A stretch of 8,446 nucleotides of DNA from Candidatus Bathyarchaeota archaeon (lineage in GTDB: Archaea > Thermoproteota > Bathyarchaeia > 40CM-2-53-6), in contig VBBQ01000016.1 in assembly GCA_005888755.1 (NCBI GenBank), positions 1 to 8,446 on the forward strand, given 5' to 3'. Under the pieces are notes generated by a model. That model had not been told where the DNA came from, ran no database searches, and saw only the letters and a list, made by a program, of their open reading frames with translations. A program made the translations under genes and the position numbers. Shown here piece after piece: positions 1-8,446 of this stretch; position 1 is the first letter of the stretch; each line of letters begins with the position of its first letter.

Positions 1-1237
1 AGTAGTTATCGTTCCTAGTCAGATGATTTGTCTCAGTCGTCGAGTTATAGCTGACAAACTTGTAGGGCCCCGTTCCAACAGGTCCACCACCGATCCCGGT
101 GTTGAACGGGTTCGTTCTCCAGTTTGCATAGGGAACGCTTGCTAGTACGTGGGCTGGAATGATTGGTGTAGTGAGGATGTTCTCGACGAAGTACGCGTAG
201 GGATTCGGGAGAGTGAACTTGACCGTGTACGGGTCCACGATTGTTACATCGGTTTTTCCGCCGACTATTCCCTTGATGAACGCCTCATTGTCCGCCGCAA
301 GAGTATCATCTTGTAGCGCGTCAAATGTGAATTTCACGTCCGTCGCGTTGAACGGAACTCCGTCGTGCCATGTCACCCCGGGACGCAAGGATACAGTCCA
401 GGTCTTCTGATCCGACCCGACAGACCAGCCATTTGCCAATTCCGGAATCATGTTCTTGAAGATCGTGTCATTCCTCTGCGCCAACGCACTGAACATTGCT
501 CCGTACACGGTCTGGTCGTAGTAGGAACTGCTCACTGCCGGGTTGAAGCCCTCCGACGGAGCCGGTCCAGTCTGGGCCAAGGTGATCGAGCCCGTCGTAG
601 ACCCGCCCAGCATCGACAATTGCTCGATCGGAGGCCAGTACGGTGAGTGATAGGTGCTGAACACGTACTGCCCGTTAGTTATGGTGTAATCAAAGGCGAC
701 AATTTCCTTCGTGTAGAGTATCGTAGCGGAGGGTTGCTGGTCATAGGCGAGCGCCTGCCACTGCTTCACCAAGTCCAACCGTTGCGTTTTGTCGAGTGTT
801 TGCTTGACCTACTGATCATTCTGGCTGTTATTCCAGAGATAATAGTTGCTACCTATCGGAGCATACTGTGAGCTGTGATAATAGGAATATGGATCAGCAT
901 CTATCCCGAGGGCATAGCCGAGGAATAGGGCGTCAAAGCCGCCATTGTCATAGCTTCTCCCGAGAACATCAGAGGCAGGCGTAAGTGCCCTGTCGAAGAT
1001 TGTGGGCCAGTCAAGAACAACCCTCTGCGCGTCGATGCCCAACGCCTGAAGGTTGCTCTGGACGAGCAACGACCAAGCCTGTCGGGCCTGACTTGGCTGG
1101 GGAACCATCAGCGTTATTCTGAATATTCCAGTAGGCTCGGTATCTCCATGGACCCATACAGGACTGGTCGAGGTGAGAGCGAGCCCGAGAAACAGTAATA
1201 CTATGGAGGTGATCCGGGCGCGAGATCGGCTAGTCAT
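1..1237 (-). pseudogene. ABC transporter substrate-binding protein, family 5 (peptide/nickel type), interrupted by in-frame TAG; 3' end beyond window
   Basis: This encodes an extracytoplasmic solute-binding protein of the SBP_bac_5 family, which captures oligopeptides or similar solutes for an ABC importer. The ATG at 1237-1235 gives a good signal peptide: basic MTSRSRAR followed by a hydrophobic ITSIVLLFLGLALTS stretch. A GTG 12 nt upstream (1249) is the longest possible start. After 142 sense codons the frame meets TAG (811-809), then stays open for 269 more codons to base 1. The part after the stop contains the family hallmark PELANGWSVGSDQKTW, then VSLRPGVTWHDGVPF and GTGPYKF. The part before it resembles the family's C-terminal lobe (LLVQSNLQALGIDAQ, then FDALFLGYALGIDADPY). 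Family-typical text continues directly across the stop (NNSQNDQ, stop, VKQTLDKTQ), so one base change, such as TTG to TAG, explains it. A nonsense pseudogene or a sequencing error is likeliest, and readthrough cannot be excluded. The solute is unknown. Confidence 0.8.
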
Positions 1238-1385
1238 CTGCGAGAACACTGAGCCGAGCAGGCGATCGGGCGTTATGGCTACTGTGTTCCTCTCTTCGTC
1301 AGACTATGAGTACTAGACCGTTTTTTGTCAGAACTCCACCATCCCGCAGCCCGAGCTAAACACACGCACTTCCACTATGGATTCA

Positions 1386-1559
1386 TCAGCGGACTTTGAC
1401 CTCGTGCGTTTTGGCCATGAACCCGTTCCTCTTGTGCGTCCCGTCGCAGAAAGGCATCAGCGTGGACCCGCCGCACCGGCACCAGGCCTGAACAACCTTC
1501 CCGTCAACGATCACAAGATTCGGACCGTTCTCCGTCGACCTTACTACGACCTCAGACAT
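1386..1559 (-). CDS. CDGSH iron-sulfur domain protein, 57 aa
   Basis: This is a small soluble [2Fe-2S] protein of the CDGSH (mitoNEET-like) family. Residues 27-42 read CRCGGSTLMPFCDGTH, which fits the family signature CxCx2(S/T)x3PxCDG(S/T/A)H exactly. The predicted cluster ligands are C27, C29, C38 and H42. Such proteins coordinate a redox-active, often labile cluster with three cysteines and one histidine, and act in electron or cluster transfer. At 57 residues it is a minimal single-motif version, with a short N-terminal strand region (VVVRSTENGPNLVIVDGK) and a basic tail. The ATG lies 6 nt after the stop of the MtrA-like gene, so it is the last gene of a three-gene operon with that gene and an FMN reductase. 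It has no signal peptide or membrane segment, so a cytoplasmic site is expected. The family assignment is secure; the partner is inferred from context, the co-transcribed flavoprotein being the obvious candidate. Confidence 0.92.
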   Translation of the reverse strand: MSEVVVRSTENGPNLVIVDGKVVQAWCRCGGSTLMPFCDGTHKRNGFMAKTHEVKVR

Positions 1560-1565
1560 GCTAGA

Positions 1566-2810
1566 TCATTGGCCCTTTCCCTTGTTGGGCTCGGTGATCT
1601 TGGCCACATCGGTCAGGATGATCAGTGTCTCCGCGTGAACCAGTTTTTTCTCGTCCAGCTTACCAAAAACCCGCAGTATCGCTCCCACGACCACGTCGGC
1701 TCCACAGCCCATGATCAGCTTACTCGTCCCTGTCCACTCAACCTCGAGACGTTGAGAGGTTCGAGTGTAAACCCGGGATGCGCCACTCTCATCCATATCG
1801 AGGAACATTCCTCCGAGAACATGGTCCTGAGGAGTATCAGTTGCCGAGAAAAACAGATCGACCGAGGCTCCGGGACCGAGCTCTCCAAATTTCTTTAGAG
1901 AATAGGCTTGGGTCGGCGTTATTTTCGGAGCCGCGGGTTCAGCAGCCTTTGCCTCCGACGACGGTGGAGGAGCAACCGATTCCCGGGCCCTCAAAGGCCG
2001 GTCCTGATCGTACCGCAACCCAAACTGTAACGCGGTCTGTGCCTTGGCCAATTCCTCGCCTAAGTAGCCAGCATGGCTCAACTGTGTAACAAGCCCATCC
2101 CGCAGGAGACCGAGTAGCATCGAAGTGGTTCCTCGTCCCCGCATCTCATGAGCCGGTGTATGATCAGGCAAGTAATGTCGTAGAGTGATCTCCTTTTGAT
2201 CAGGCTCGACGGTGATCACAAAGTATCCTTTCGGATCATAAATCAACGGCTCACGCTGGCCGCCCGGTCGAATTGACGTGAACGCTTCTTGCTTTGCAGA
2301 AGCATCGGCTTTCTTTCCCGTTACGAAAACACCCGGATTGCGATCAGAGAGACTCTTCACCCGTTCCTCTAAGATCTGGAGATCTTCTTCTCCGGTCCAG
2401 TCAATTACTTCCACCTGTTTCCTGAACTGCACTACCTGCTCCGGAGCAACAGATGGAAGAACTGGATCATAACCAGCCGCATCGATAATCCGTCGTTTGT
2501 CGTCAACGCCCTTCTCAGATAGAGCGACAAGAGACTGTCCCGGCTTGAATAGCGCAGAGTCTTTGCCACAGATGAGCAGGAAACGGATCGCAGGATTAGA
2601 CGTGATGTTGACAATAATCCGGGTAATGCCAAGATTGGCGGTGTAGACCGTGCCCGCAATCGCCACTCCCGGAACAGCTACAAGCGGACCGATCAAACGC
2701 TCAGAGGTAAGCGCACAAACTGCGACTGGGTCATTTGGATCGCCAACCTGGTAGGTTCCTGGCATAGGGGGCCATGACGCGCTCTTCTTCGTGCTACTCG
2801 CTGCTTCCAA
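1566..2810 (-). CDS. MtrA-like protein (tetrahydromethanopterin S-methyltransferase subunit A domain) with DUF4346-like and OB-like C-terminal modules, 414 aa
   Basis: Residues 13-140 match subunit A of the tetrahydromethanopterin:coenzyme M methyltransferase, the corrinoid-carrying subunit: WPPMPGTYQVGDPNDPVAV, then TANLGITRIIVNI, SNPAIRFLLICG, and GQSLVALSEKGVDD. In methanogen MtrA a histidine (His84 in Methanothermobacter) binds the corrinoid cobalt. The aligned residue here, in CGKDSALFKPGQS, is F88, so classical base-off cobamide binding is doubtful. Residues about 188-272 resemble DUF4346 (YDPKGYFVI, then DGLVTQLSHAGYLGEELAKA). A proline/alanine-rich linker (278-298) leads to a beta-rich, OB-like module (about 300-402; RTSQRLEVEW, then GAILRVFGKLD). 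The C-terminal membrane helix of true MtrA is missing, so the protein should be soluble. The start is TTG, directly after the FMN reductase stop, with GGAG seven bases upstream; the next in-frame ATG would cut into the conserved WPP motif. It sits mid-operon between the flavin reductase and CDGSH genes. Family homology is strong; the biochemical role is unknown. Confidence 0.85.
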   Translation of the reverse strand: MEAASSTKKSASWPPMPGTYQVGDPNDPVAVCALTSERLIGPLVAVPGVAIAGTVYTANLGITRIIVNITSNPAIRFLLICGKDSALFKPGQSLVALSEKGVDDKRRIIDAAGYDPVLPSVAPEQVVQFRKQVEVIDWTGEEDLQILEERVKSLSDRNPGVFVTGKKADASAKQEAFTSIRPGGQREPLIYDPKGYFVITVEPDQKEITLRHYLPDHTPAHEMRGRGTTSMLLGLLRDGLVTQLSHAGYLGEELAKAQTALQFGLRYDQDRPLRARESVAPPPSSEAKAAEPAAPKITPTQAYSLKKFGELGPGASVDLFFSATDTPQDHVLGGMFLDMDESGASRVYTRTSQRLEVEWTGTSKLIMGCGADVVVGAILRVFGKLDEKKLVHAETLIILTDVAKITEPNKGKGQ

Positions 2811-3389
2811 CTAGAATCTCCGCGACCATTCTACAAGGGCGTCGAGCAGGCTTTGCAGAGTTTTCAAGGAGGCTGAATCTACGAGTTTGAGGTTGGCGTC
2901 GAATTTCTCCCCCGTTCTTGCCAAGAGCAGCTGAGGCTGATTGATCGGATGCATGTTCAAGTCCACCATTATCTGTCTGAGATGCGCCTGCGCCCCCGCG
3001 CCACCCCGTAGAGAAATGGAAGCGCTGATGATCGCCGCAGGCTTGCCGTCCCACGAGTTGTTCGGCTGATTTCCCCACTCGATCGCGTTCTTCAAAACAG
3101 CAGAGACCGAGTAGTTGTACTCGGGCGTCGCGAAGAGTACCGCGTCCGACTGTTTCACCCTCTCCTTGAACTCCTGTATCTCCTCAGGCATTTCAGCGAG
3201 CAGGTCTTCATTGAACAACTGGAAACGGGACAGGTCAAGAATCTCCAGCACGGCAGCTTCAGGGACGAGGGTTTTTGCCGCCTCAAGCAGGGCGGTGTTG
3301 TACGACCTTTCTCGTCCACTCCCCGATATTCCTAGAATCCGAACTGCGGCTCTCTTCTTTTCGGAGTCTGAAATTTGGAGTCGGGCCAT
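2811..3389 (-). CDS. NAD(P)H-dependent FMN reductase family flavoprotein, 192 aa
   Basis: This is a flavodoxin-fold oxidoreductase of the NADPH-dependent FMN reductase family (PF03358; relatives include SsuE, ChrR and azoreductases). Members bind FMN and transfer hydride from NAD(P)H to flavin, quinones, metal ions or other acceptors. Residues 18-31 (ILGISGSGRERSYN) form the FMN phosphate-binding loop. Residues 88-105 (TPEYNYSVSAVLKNAIEW) are the family's isoalloxazine-contacting hallmark. RGGAGAQAHLR (128-138) fits the conserved Gly-rich segment near the flavin. The length is typical, with a 17-residue charged N-terminal extension before the first strand. Its ATG has no clear Shine-Dalgarno sequence. 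It is the first gene of the operon: its TAG stop directly abuts the TTG of the MtrA-like gene, and the CDGSH gene follows. This suggests that electrons from NAD(P)H are passed to one of these partners, which is inference. The physiological acceptor cannot be read from sequence. Confidence 0.92.
   Translation of the reverse strand: MARLQISDSEKKRAAVRILGISGSGRERSYNTALLEAAKTLVPEAAVLEILDLSRFQLFNEDLLAEMPEEIQEFKERVKQSDAVLFATPEYNYSVSAVLKNAIEWGNQPNNSWDGKPAAIISASISLRGGAGAQAHLRQIMVDLNMHPINQPQLLLARTGEKFDANLKLVDSASLKTLQSLLDALVEWSRRF
2818..2821 (-). promoter_or_regulatory. Ribosome binding site deciding the TTG start of the MtrA-like gene
   Basis: On the minus strand GGAG is followed seven bases later by TTG (2810-2808). 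The site lies inside the last codons of the FMN reductase gene, whose TAG stop directly abuts the TTG. This supports the TTG start and implies translational coupling of the two genes. Confidence 0.55.
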
Positions 3390-3435
3390 AAATCGTCTGC
3401 TTCGTTTCTCTGTCTGAACCAGGTGCTTGAGGCGC

Positions 3436-3443
3436 TAATAATT
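3436..3443 (-). promoter_or_regulatory. Possible TATA box for the FMN reductase / MtrA-like / CDGSH operon
   Basis: On the minus strand AATTATTA lies about 47-54 nt ahead of the ATG at 3389. It is the most AT-rich stretch in this interval and would put transcription start roughly 20-25 nt before the ATG. The match to an archaeal TATA box is only moderate and no clear BRE is seen. Confidence 0.3.
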
Positions 3444-3614
3444 CTGAGCGGAAATCCAAGTCCACAACGGACCCGAATGTTATCTTCGGTACAGTAGGGG
3501 CAACGTCTTGTTTGTCGTCATACTCTTTTTACCAAAGACCAGCGGACCAGTCGTCTGTTCGAGCAGCTCGTTTCATGGGGGCCCAGGTTCGAGGGTGCGA
3601 CTCACAGGAGATGG

Positions 3615-3912: not shown

Positions 3913-4338
3913 TTGAGCCTCAAACGAGATATGGACAGGGCTCGAGACGAACTGGAGCGAGCCGATGAGGCGTGGTGCGCAGCGGCCGCAGCTGCTCGCG
4001 ACGTGGAACAAATTGTCTCCTTTTGGGCCGACGATGCAATTGTTATTCCGCCAGGACAGACGCCCATTATCGGCAAGAATGCGATTCGGAACTATGTGAT
4101 TGACAGCTTGAAGATCCCGGGTTTCAGCATCGAATGGAAGACGACTCGGTTCGCGATCGCCCGAGATTGCGACCTCGCCTACGGTGTCGGTACGAACCAG
4201 GTCTCGTTCAACGACGAGAAGGGCAATCGCGTCACATTACGCGGCAAAGCCGTGACGATTTGGCGAATGGAGGACAAAGCATGGAAGTGCGTTGTCGACA
4301 TCTGGAACGACGACCCCGCCCCGAGTGAGCACGCGTAA
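3913..4338 (+). CDS. DUF4440 / SnoaL-like NTF2-fold protein, 141 aa
   Basis: This is a small cone-shaped alpha+beta barrel protein of the NTF2-like superfamily, DUF4440 branch. The pattern is typical of the full-length family (about 120-150 residues): an N-terminal helix ERADEAWCAAAAARDVEQIV-like region (residues 15-34), FWADDAIVIPPGQTPIIGKN (37-56) with the helix after it, then strands ending in AVTIWRMEDKAWKCVVDIWN (113-132). Members include polyketide cyclases, isomerases and many uncharacterised pocket proteins, so a specific reaction cannot be assigned. The start is TTG at 3913; an ATG at 3931 (residue 7) is the alternative and keeps the whole domain. It has no signal peptide, so it is probably cytoplasmic. 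The DUF998 gene follows on the same strand after 59 nt with no obvious promoter between them, so the two may be co-transcribed. It is the only intact one of three NTF2-fold genes in the window. Confidence 0.8.
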   Translation: MSLKRDMDRARDELERADEAWCAAAAAARDVEQIVSFWADDAIVIPPGQTPIIGKNAIRNYVIDSLKIPGFSIEWKTTRFAIARDCDLAYGVGTNQVSFNDEKGNRVTLRGKAVTIWRMEDKAWKCVVDIWNDDPAPSEHA

Positions 4339-5208: not shown

Positions 5209-5640
5209 TTGAGTAAGCTTGCGTCTAGCTGCCAACCCGATATCTCAAGCATCATATCGGGAAAAAAAGAACTTTGCAGGAGAGACATATGCGCGGTAAT
5301 CAAAGCGGTAAGGAAGCTAGGCTCCGAGTGGAGAATCCTGATTTCATATTATCTCCTCGACAATCCCCTCCGATTCAACGATCTACTTCGAAAGGGAAAG
5401 CCCGATGATCTTAACGCTCGAACTCTTTCTAGAACTCTGAAGTATTTGCAGAGTATGGGAACCGTTGAGAGAAGAGTAACAGGCACAGAACCCTTCTCAG
5501 TCGTCTACAGTCTCACAGAGAAAGGACGAGACCTAGCCGGTATCCTGTCCGCCTACCGGAAATGGGGAGAGAAATGGACCCCAAGCATCGTCCACCCACT
5601 ACCATATCCGAAGGTAAGAGCAGCCACGCTGAGTCATTGA
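5209..5640 (+). CDS. HxlR-family winged helix-turn-helix transcriptional regulator, 143 aa
   Basis: This is a DNA-binding regulator of the HxlR/MarR-like family, usually dimeric and often sensing redox or electrophile stress. The order of elements is typical: C28AVIKAVRKLGSEWRILI (28-45, first helix, with Cys in the place of the conserved family cysteine), LLDNPLRFNDLLRK (49-62), recognition helix LNARTLSRTLKYLQSMGTV (69-87), wing ERRVTGTEPFSVVYSLTEKG (88-107) and a C-terminal dimerisation helix. The TTG at 5209 gives about 20 residues more before the conserved core than most relatives have, but no ATG or GTG start lies closer in frame. The extra residues contain C8 and C23. A perfect dyad (5236-5261) sits inside this extension, which suggests autoregulation or a later true start. 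It is separated from the upstream DUF998 gene by 88 nt with its own TATA box. The target genes are unknown. Confidence 0.88.
   Translation: MSKLASSCQPDISSIISGKKELCRRDICAVIKAVRKLGSEWRILISYYLLDNPLRFNDLLRKGKPDDLNARTLSRTLKYLQSMGTVERRVTGTEPFSVVYSLTEKGRDLAGILSAYRKWGEKWTPSIVHPLPYPKVRAATLSH
5236..5261. repeat. Perfect 8-bp inverted repeat in the 5' end of the HxlR gene
   Basis: CCCGATAT (5236-5243) and ATATCGGG (5254-5261) are exact reverse complements separated by 10 nt. The half-sites are 18 bp apart centre to centre, close to two helical turns, as for a dimeric regulator on one DNA face. The right arm is followed by seven A residues and then AGGAGA at 5278-5283. It could be an operator for the HxlR protein or an RNA hairpin; neither is proven. 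Confidence 0.5.
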
Positions 5641-5723
5641 CAACGCCATTAAGGATGCTGCATTTGACCTAAGTATTAACTCGAACGTCATTCCGTTCCC
5701 GTCGTGTGGTTATCTCATGGGGG

Positions 5724-6135
5724 CTATTTTATCGGGGTTATCGCCGTCAAGTCCAAATTGTGCATGACTTTGACCAGCCACTTCCCTTCCTCGTTCGTCA
5801 TGATCCAGCTGAATCCCACGCCTTGAAAGTCGAGGTTGGCCGGAATCATCCGAGGCACCTGTCATATTCCACCAGATATCTACGGAGGCTACGTCTGGTT
5901 TTATGAGCCGGACCTTGATGTTCTCGCTCGTTTGATGGCTGGTCTTGAACCTGGTGGCAAAGGAGAGTACATGTGCTCTCTCGATGGCATCTCTGCCAGT
6001 CGCCCCTTGACCCCTCCAGTTCGTGAGGTCAGCGTCTTTTGCGAAGAGCGATGCAAATACTTTCGCGTCATGTCTGTTCCAGGCGTCCATGCAATCCCTG
6101 ACAATTTCACGGATCGACTCTTCAGGTGCTAGCAT
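5724..6135 (-). pseudogene. NTF2/SnoaL-like protein (SgcJ/EcaC type) disrupted by a frameshift
   Basis: From ATG at 6135 the first 108 codons read as a normal SnoaL-like NTF2-fold protein: EESIREIVRDCMDAWNRHDA, then SLFAKDADLTNWRGQGATGR, and IKPDVASVDIWWNMTGA. After SRRGI (codon 108) the frame gives non-family sequence and stops at 5710. One base over, the expected C-terminal strand appears: WIMTNEEGKW, then LVKVMHNLDL, ending at TAG 5726-5724. So one extra base (or two missing) lies near 5806-5814. The restored protein would be about 136 residues, normal for the family. A frameshift-inactivated gene or an assembly indel is most likely. No slippery heptamer is evident, which argues against programmed shifting. 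An apparent TATA box lies 27 nt ahead of the ATG, so the gene was built as a leaderless unit. It is convergent with the HxlR gene. The ligand or reaction is unknown. Confidence 0.82.
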
Positions 6136-6987: not shown

Positions 6988-7039
6988 TCGAGCGACCCTG
7001 CCTATCGTGTGCGGACGCATCCAGAGCGTGTAGCGGTTT

Positions 7040-8446
7040 GTGAAATTTTACAGCTTTGAAAACGAGAACCATTCCGCCCAAGCTTTCCGAGCCGCGCAAG
7101 AGGCCAGCCTAGCCATGAAGGAGGGCAAGAAGGCCGCAGATATCGAGAAGGCTCTCCAACATTGGACAGGTTCAGCGATTGACCCTCAGCTGAAACCTCT
7201 TCAAGCCAAAGCGAGACAGTTAGGAGAGACCGCGCATTCACTGGCTTCGTCTCTGGATAGTCGCTGCCGAGAATTCATTCGAAACACCAAATGGGACATG
7301 TCTGGCTTAGGCGATTCCCGTCGCCTTCGAGCCGCCATGGCATTAAGCCGCGTATCGGGAGAGATTGTCGCTGCGTGCGGTGAGTTCCTAAAATCAAGTT
7401 CGAACACGCCGGTATCGAAACTCGAGGCGAGCATAACGAGACTGTTGCGGGTGGCTAGTTCAAGCTACAACAATTCGGTGAAAGCCATGGGTTCACACTA
7501 CGCTTCGGAGAGAGGTTGGCTTAGAGCGGAGATAGAAGGGCTGCAGCAGCTCTACAACCAAACGTCCCAGTTCCAGACAAGGACCCGAGACATCACGTCG
7601 ATCCACGACCAAATACGAGAACACTCCAAGACACTCGTCGAGCATCTCGCGATGTTACAGGATCTTGAAGATTCTCGCTTCCGTCTCGAAAAGGAGATTC
7701 ACCAACTTGTCTACAACGAGGGATCCCTTCTAGAAGCTATAGAGCGGATCGAATCTGATTCCGAGATTCGAGCTGCCAATGCCAAAGAAGCGGAGCTCAA
7801 AAGACTGAGAAAGAAGCTCTTGGACGAAGAAATGTCCAGACTGGGCGGGGTATTCGCAAGGCTTCTGTCGTCGCATCATAGGGGAGAAATGCATACCCAT
7901 CCGCAGGCAATAGAAGTATTGACGCGATACGTGAAAACCCCGCTGACGACTTTGGCCAAGGAATCCGACGGCTATCCGGAACTGACAGACTTGCTCGAAG
8001 GACTATGCGAATCCATCGAATCAACCAGGCTACCGCTCGGCGAGAAAAAGGCGAAAAAGACACTTGAGCGGGCGAAACGAATCATAAACGGGTCACTCAG
8101 ACCAATTCAGAAGGAGGCTCGAGAAGCCTTTACGTCAAGGAGTCAGATTCTACGCCTCCCCAACGTGAGACATCTCAGATCCCAACGGTCCGACCTGCGA
8201 GCGGAATACACTAGATCCCGAGCTTCCAGGGAATTGCTGGAATCGAAGATCAAGAACATCGCCGAGGAAGCTTCGTTGCTGCGAGTCCGGGCAAAAACCC
8301 ATCTGGACACAGTAGACGAACTCGCTACCAAGAACTTCAACAAAAGCATTCCGCGGGAACTGCGTGAAGAAGTCCTATCTCTGACTCAGGAGACCCTTCG
8401 TCAAAACCGTTCCGACCCCTTCAACATTGTGCCCAAACGTTCCTCC
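7040..8446 (+). CDS. Large alpha-helical coiled-coil protein, at least 469 aa, 3' end beyond window
   Basis: From GTG at 7040 the frame is open for 469 codons to the last base, so the protein is truncated by the window and may be much longer. A TAG two codons upstream makes GTG the longest start; there is no clear Shine-Dalgarno sequence. The product is rich in Glu, Arg, Lys, Leu and Ala. Two long heptad-like regions are visible, at about residues 157-267 (with LRAEIEGLQQLYN and RLEKEIHQLV, then AELKRLRKKLLDEE) and about 333-460 (with KKAKKTLERAKRII, later RSDLRAEYTRSR and ESKIKNIAEEA). Between them is a less regular segment with a histidine cluster, SSHHRGEMHTHP (277-288). No signal peptide, membrane helix or Walker A loop is visible in this part. 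I do not recognise the family; a structural or SMC/Rad50-like filament role is one possibility only. Codon use and the absence of stops over 1.4 kb make it a real gene. It diverges from the AsnC/Lrp gene, which may regulate it. Confidence 0.85.
   Translation, partial: MKFYSFENENHSAQAFRAAQEASLAMKEGKKAADIEKALQHWTGSAIDPQLKPLQAKARQLGETAHSLASSLDSRCREFIRNTKWDMSGLGDSRRLRAAMALSRVSGEIVAACGEFLKSSSNTPVSKLEASITRLLRVASSSYNNSVKAMGSHYASERGWLRAEIEGLQQLYNQTSQFQTRTRDITSIHDQIREHSKTLVEHLAMLQDLEDSRFRLEKEIHQLVYNEGSLLEAIERIESDSEIRAANAKEAELKRLRKKLLDEEMSRLGGVFARLLSSHHRGEMHTHPQAIEVLTRYVKTPLTTLAKESDGYPELTDLLEGLCESIESTRLPLGEKKAKKTLERAKRIINGSLRPIQKEAREAFTSRSQILRLPNVRHLRSQRSDLRAEYTRSRASRELLESKIKNIAEEASLLRVRAKTHLDTVDELATKNFNKSIPRELREEVLSLTQETLRQNRSDPFNIVPKRSS

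Follow-up and report, generated by a model that had tools for sequence, protein, structure and literature searches.

An MtrA-like/CDGSH gene pair of soil Bathyarchaeia in which the MtrA cobalt-linkage residues are replaced

Do the genes of a flavin reductase, an MtrA-like protein and a CDGSH iron-sulfur protein, packed closely together in an archaeal genome, form one conserved unit, and what might an MtrA-like protein do beside an iron-sulfur protein? The window (the whole stretch of DNA analysed, 8446 bases) is the beginning of contig C2 of a 2.0-Mb archaeal genome that is 95% complete, and the relatives that carry a name are MAGs from soil with the label Candidatus Bathyarchaeota. An earlier note, whose interval (1566-3389) leaves out the CDGSH gene, had read the three genes as an operon encoding a plausible small electron-transfer system. 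ORF calls, the sequence and Pfam confirm the three genes:

2811-3389, minus strand: FMN_red-family flavoprotein, 192 aa (PF03358, 3.9e-39, 134 bits)
1566-2810, minus strand: MtrA-like protein, 414 aa, TTG start (PF04208, 1.2e-36, residues 10-162)
1386-1559, minus strand: CDGSH protein, 57 aa, single-motif NEET type (PF09360, 1.9e-10)

The family assignments of the note stand, since PF03358, PF04208 and PF09360 all match, and so does the spacing it described: the TAG stop of the reductase (2813-2811) directly abuts the TTG start of the MtrA-like gene (2810), and 6 nt separate the stop of the latter from the ATG of the CDGSH gene. Comparison of the window with its relatives shows purifying selection on each of the three genes, with dN/dS of 0.08-0.21 for the MtrA-like gene (pairs with finite dS), 0.03-0.29 for CDGSH and 0.18-0.26 for FMN_red (0.57 against the frameshifted copy of genome G006). 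Downstream of CDGSH lies the gene of an extracellular solute-binding protein (2-1249, minus strand), interrupted by a stop at 809-811 that adjoins a small deletion relative to the intact 661-aa relative in locus L022. On the other side, DUF998 and HxlR genes lie between two NTF2-fold genes of the SnoaL/DUF4440 type, one on each strand (3913-4338 and 5710-6135; the L022 relative of the second is frameshifted), and an unannotated 471-codon open frame, apparently helical or coiled-coil (7034-8446, plus strand), runs past the end of the window.

We compared 17 loci in 14 of the 21 genomes of the window's archaeal family, counts that are limited to the available genome collections and are not independent of one another. 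At 15 of these loci (13 of the 14 genomes), the next gene after the MtrA-like one, on the same strand, is CDGSH; the pair holds down to 60% MtrA identity, the gap between its genes ranging from -16 to 35 nt, while its other neighbours mostly change between loci. FMN_red precedes the pair at five loci, all within one subclade (G000, which is the window's own genome, G003, G006, G007:C67 and G013). On these counts a conserved FMN_red-MtrA-CDGSH operon is ruled out; what is conserved is the pair of MtrA-like and CDGSH genes. Two loci are exceptions with no adjacent CDGSH gene, one in G016 and the other a second copy in G002 (G002:C36), and none was found at the five Chloroflexota loci either, some of which lie on short contigs. 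The MtrA-like gene was not detected in seven of the 21 family genomes, a soft kind of absence because the genomes are MAGs, and several copies are decayed, including two of the 15 paired loci (G000:C25 and G003); G009 keeps CDGSH with no detectable MtrA-like gene. Among 256 genomes of the class, this family alone was found to have the long MtrA-like form. The decayed second copy in the window's own genome (G000:C25:19466-20560; L002, L085) has an MtrA-like gene that lacks approximately residues 126-225, a CDGSH gene truncated after residue 44 and an HxlR gene split across two frames, followed by an intact 672-aa ORF.

The reductase is a recent and optional addition in front of the pair in the window genome. 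Its presence is patchy on the MtrA tree, where at least three changes are needed, and its orthologs in other genomes (53-66% identity) are unlinked to the pair, so that the three-gene order is not conserved among related genomes. Where it is present, FMN_red is coupled to the MtrA-like gene by TAG|TTG at four loci and by an overlap in G007. Co-transcription of the three genes, previously called almost certain, is better described as likely. The synonymous divergence of FMN_red from the window is 0.13-0.17 in L027, L022 and L016, against 0.41-0.75 for the adjoining MtrA-like genes, a difference that suggests that the reductase block has recombined or spread laterally. In relatives without the reductase, a 94-aa ORF ending in SAQRYASRNSIR occupies the place where it would sit (L005 1204-1485, L008 1201-1485, L023 5701-5985, L024 2066-2350); its standing as a gene is uncertain (dN/dS 0.28-0.58, no Pfam family over the cut-off). 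The Pfam-annotated neighbours of the unlinked reductase copies have no common theme.

FMN_red has the motifs GSGRERSYN and PEYNYS, matching the phosphate loop GSxRxxSxN and the PEYN expected of this flavodoxin-like domain, and its closest PDB entries are 1rtt (2.3e-45), chromate reductases (3s2y/4hs4) and YieF (3svl). Its nearest solved relatives are chromate, azo and FMN-dependent NAD(P)H reductases; chromate/azo reductases and YieF hold their FMN. The flavoprotein assignment stands, and the protein probably acts as an FMN-bound enzyme instead of supplying free FMNH2. The ligand-bearing stretch of the CDGSH protein, CRCGGSTLMPFCDGTH, reads C-x-C-x2-S-x3-P-x-C-D-G-x-H, which fits the NEET consensus C-x-C-x2-(S/T)-x3-P-x-C-D-G-(S/T)-H; with a PF09360 score of 41 bits (cut-off 29.5) and PDB relatives 3tbn and 3tbo, it is a predicted [2Fe-2S] NEET-type protein. 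MitoNEET can be reduced by NADH through a flavin reductase and FMN (PMC9490426), which makes an NAD(P)H-flavin-NEET chain chemically plausible, though the reductase of the window resembles enzymes that hold their FMN and is dispensable.

The MtrA-like protein is more elaborate than the earlier note recognised: behind the MtrA domain (residues 10-162) follow a DUF4346 domain (192-270) and a C-terminal predicted OB fold (about 295-408), both of which it had missed. The relationship to MtrA is seen in sequence (PF04208, 126 bits against a cut-off of 25; phmmer 8e-34) and in the predicted structure (Foldseek 3.6e-9 to 5LAA; VIA Z of about 12 over 137-141 residues, rmsd 3.8-4.8), and the cut-off of the NCBIfam MtrA equivalog TIGR01111 is not reached (120 against 249 bits). 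The AlphaFold2 model was built from only 16 related sequences; it has mostly pLDDT 80-90 in the C-terminal domain, which matches several OB domains (VIA Z 8-9.5, rmsd 2.4-3.8 over 85-94 residues), and is weaker elsewhere, with the MtrA fold still recognised. The DUF4346 domain (PF14251 PterinBD-DUF4346, 1.2e-18, 68 bits against a cut-off of 29.6; model pLDDT 84) has a predicted fold for which no significant match was found in the PDB (best Foldseek E 0.21, best VIA Z 5.2); a literature search brought up no paper on DUF4346. We assembled a subfamily of 17 sequences (the window and 16 relatives) from soil Bathyarchaeia and Chloroflexota. It forms one clade (support 99/96, branch 1.24; the program flagged long branches), within which the copies of Ktedonobacterales (Chloroflexota; L033-L036) nest inside Bathyarchaeia (support 97/96), suggesting transfer from archaea to Chloroflexota. 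Descent of the MtrA-like protein from a soluble MtrA-DUF4346 protein is the best explanation.

In the crystal structure of MtrA, the cobalt ligand is His84, hydrogen-bonded by Glu54, and the cobalamin contacts are listed, including those of the nucleotide tail (PMC4915002). Two codons of the window align with these residues:

2547-2549, minus strand: codon 88 (Phe), aligned with the cobalt-ligating His84 (alignment and PMC4915002)
2637-2639, minus strand: codon 58 (Ala), aligned with Glu54 (alignment and PMC4915002)

At the first position, subfamily members have Phe in 17/17 cases, whereas the MtrA-like proteins compared from outside it (12 ordinary ones from Bathyarchaeia, plus the MtrA-DUF4346 proteins of Planococcus and Paraburkholderia) have His in 14/14; at the second, the two groups have Ala in 17/17 and Glu in 14/14. 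As judged from the alignment, the His/Glu cobalt linkage is lost across the subfamily. The nucleotide-tail pocket is mostly kept (Thr53, Asn55, Gly57 and Asn64 in 17/17, Tyr18 in 16/17, and Ile for the Val61 contact), while the backbone-contact residues Asp17 and Lys52 differ, the meander motif has changed from GAIPYxEN to GYDPVLPS, and the loops have gained the invariant aromatics Tyr56, Phe88 and Tyr114. The combination of a retained tail pocket and Phe at the axial His position is suggestive of a corrinoid held His-off.

These replacements bear directly on whether the protein is an ordinary corrinoid carrier of C1 groups, charged by a methyl-pterin that its DUF4346 domain would hold. The fusion of an MtrA fold with DUF4346 would fit such a role, and a methyl-carrier role is assumed for soluble homologs of MtrA in other organisms (PMC11291895, PMC9635834). 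We consider it highly improbable here, because His84 and Glu54 are replaced in every subfamily member, the TIGR01111 score falls far short, and MtrH (PF02007), found in both methanogen controls, was detected in none of the 21 family genomes. The description of the protein as C1-carrier-related therefore holds for its ancestry only. Corrinoids are probably available to the family, since B12-binding domains (PF02310) are matched in 21/21 genomes, in 16 of them over the cut-off, and 18/21 have the PduO adenosyltransferase (PF01923). The window's own genome is among the latter, which makes it unlikely that the MtrA-like protein replaces a corrinoid adenosyltransferase.

Our leading reading, held tentatively, is a redox unit in which an MtrA-derived protein with a His-less corrinoid, or another ligand, works with a NEET-type [2Fe-2S] partner and, optionally, a flavoprotein. 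We infer that the MtrA-like protein most likely grips a corrinoid by the nucleotide tail, leaving it base-off/His-off; Phe88 would sit beneath the ring, by analogy with the Phe of PduO-type adenosyltransferases, which reportedly creates four-coordinate Co(II). Its task would be redox or ligand transfer instead of His-on methyl transfer from methyl-H4MPT via MtrH. The CDGSH protein may exchange single electrons with it or with its partners, and the quinone-reductase-like FMN protein, where present, could feed in electrons from NAD(P)H; Mera and Escalante-Semerena (2010) are said to have found that dihydroflavins reduce four-coordinate Co(II) corrinoids, which, with the flavin route to mitoNEET, favours this chain. 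The redox unit is also favoured by the persistence of the pair among changing neighbours, by tail contacts kept while Glu54 to Ala and His84 to Phe became fixed, and by the use of B12 in genomes with no detected MtrH. Several points count against it: the residues kept in the pocket may have a structural role, the potentials of NEET clusters are so high that Co(I) would be out of reach, and the adjacency fails at G016, G002:C36 and the five Chloroflexota loci (some of them on short contigs), as does the partnership in G009, in the seven genomes missing the MtrA-like gene and in the decayed copies. Of the three-protein electron-transfer system originally proposed, the pair survives and the reductase becomes dispensable, with the electron flow itself a proposal.

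A ligand other than a corrinoid is nearly as likely as the His-off corrinoid: the MtrA domain may hold another planar or nucleotide-bearing molecule (flavin or pterin) between loops with Tyr56, Phe88 and Tyr114, DUF4346 forming the pterin half of a pterin- or flavin-dependent enzyme or sensor. The lost cobalt linkage and meander motif and the new invariant aromatics point that way, as does the conservation of the DUF4346 core even against the Planococcus and Paraburkholderia homologs (18 positions common to these and the window). However, the nucleotide-tail contacts of cobalamin are kept, and pterin binding by DUF4346 rests on the Pfam name, its predicted fold having no significant PDB match.

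How the genes may be controlled offers another view of the pair. Two features of the window are concerned:

3431-3486, minus strand: conserved upstream stretch AAGATAACATTCGGGTCCG...GTGGACTTGG.TTTCCGCTCAGAATTATTAGCG (upstream comparison of the window, L022, L024 and L005)
5209-5640, plus strand: HxlR-type winged-helix regulator (PF01638, 3.7e-18)

The upstream stretch lies ahead of FMN_red in the window and ahead of the 94-aa ORF in relatives without the reductase, and is likely a promoter or leader. The deeper loci L028-L032 have a conserved, putative promoter-operator element, AGTATACTNNTNGNATC, and then a TATA-like stretch shortly before the MtrA-like start. In a pattern search, six genomes had a single occurrence each of the full element, before the MtrA-like gene or, in G009, directly before the lone CDGSH gene; the window genome and G013 had none. 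In L029-L032 the element is bordered by a divergent HxlR gene, and AGTATACTNNTGGTATC is a candidate target of this regulator. The HxlR proteins of these loci have an N-terminal Cys ahead of the winged helix (KQCPVGIDLATLGRKW / KGCQVGLDLAAIGKKW), a residue that senses electrophiles or oxidants in the HxlR/DUF24 family (PMC7835342); sensing of the formaldehyde type was rejected, the Cys-x-Lys pair of B. subtilis HxlR being absent from L029-L032. The HxlR gene of the window is also divergent from the unit, with DUF4440 and DUF998 genes in between, is syntenic in L022-L027 and may control the unit. In Chloroflexota, PadR genes are immediately upstream (L033, L036) or nearby (L037); the Ktedonobacterales loci L033-L036 have adjoining PadR regulators instead of HxlR. 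We infer that transcription would be controlled by HxlR (or PadR) in response to an electrophile or oxidant. No operator site was found upstream of the unlinked FMN_red copies, which discounts control of the reductase by the same operator elsewhere.

Such control could be all that the two genes share, the MtrA-like and CDGSH proteins being merely co-regulated in a stress-inducible transcript, with CDGSH serving general Fe-S or redox homeostasis. The lone CDGSH gene of G009 behind the same element, the coming and going of FMN_red and the HxlR with a sensing Cys beside the deeper loci would all fit, but the pair persists over a large divergence with tight spacing while other neighbours mostly change, and we regard independent functions as rather unlikely. 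The redox unit is itself favoured by the element that occurs once per genome before either gene and by the divergent HxlR with its sensing Cys. A more specific form of it, a His-off B12 redox protein reducible by flavin or NEET, with a dedicated NEET partner, induced by electrophiles and passed to Chloroflexota, is a long shot; if true, soil archaea would have a B12-dependent redox module outside the known methyl-transfer, mutase and dehalogenase systems.

Where MtrA homologs occur in non-methanogens, the usual interpretation is a leftover of methyl transfer. The loss of the linkage, the largely kept tail pocket, the DUF4346/OB fusion and the NEET neighbour indicate that the MtrA fold has acquired a different role here, and metabolic reconstructions of soil Bathyarchaeia would be misled if the protein were annotated as tetrahydromethanopterin S-methyltransferase subunit A. 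With MtrA of the Mtr complex (PF04208; 5L8X, 5LAA) and its soluble cytoplasmic homologs, the window protein has in common the Rossmann-type MtrA domain; it differs in Phe for His84, Ala for Glu54, the altered meander motif, the DUF4346 and predicted OB-fold domains behind MtrA, the CDGSH neighbour and the lack of a detected MtrH in the family genomes. Bacterial MtrA-DUF4346 proteins (Planococcus plasmids, WP_051627662.1/WP_082707470.1, L050 and L051; a plasmid of Paraburkholderia sp. PGU19, L052) have the same order of MtrA and DUF4346, but they retain Glu54 and His84, have no OB-like domain at the C-terminus and carry an N-terminal Cys-rich segment, CxxCxC...CLGCExCFP, possibly an Fe-S or Zn site; on one plasmid of 12.5 kb, the gene is preceded by that of a heavy-metal P-type ATPase. 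The Asgard MtrAH fusions and MtrA-like proteins (PMC11291895) are likewise non-methanogen MtrA derivatives with an added domain, which is MtrH in MtrAH and DUF4346/OB here. The likeness to PduO-type adenosyltransferases is a proposed analogy, Phe under the ring for the axial ligand, with no homology claimed, and family genomes encode a separate PduO beside the MtrA-like protein. A literature search brought up no paper linking CDGSH to an MtrA-like gene. The CDGSH protein resembles single-motif type 3 proteins (PDB 3TBO, Pyrobaculum calidifontis) in its one C3H motif and its length under 60 aa and differs from them in the coupling of its gene to an MtrA-like gene, which offers a prokaryotic genomic partner for archaeal CDGSH proteins.
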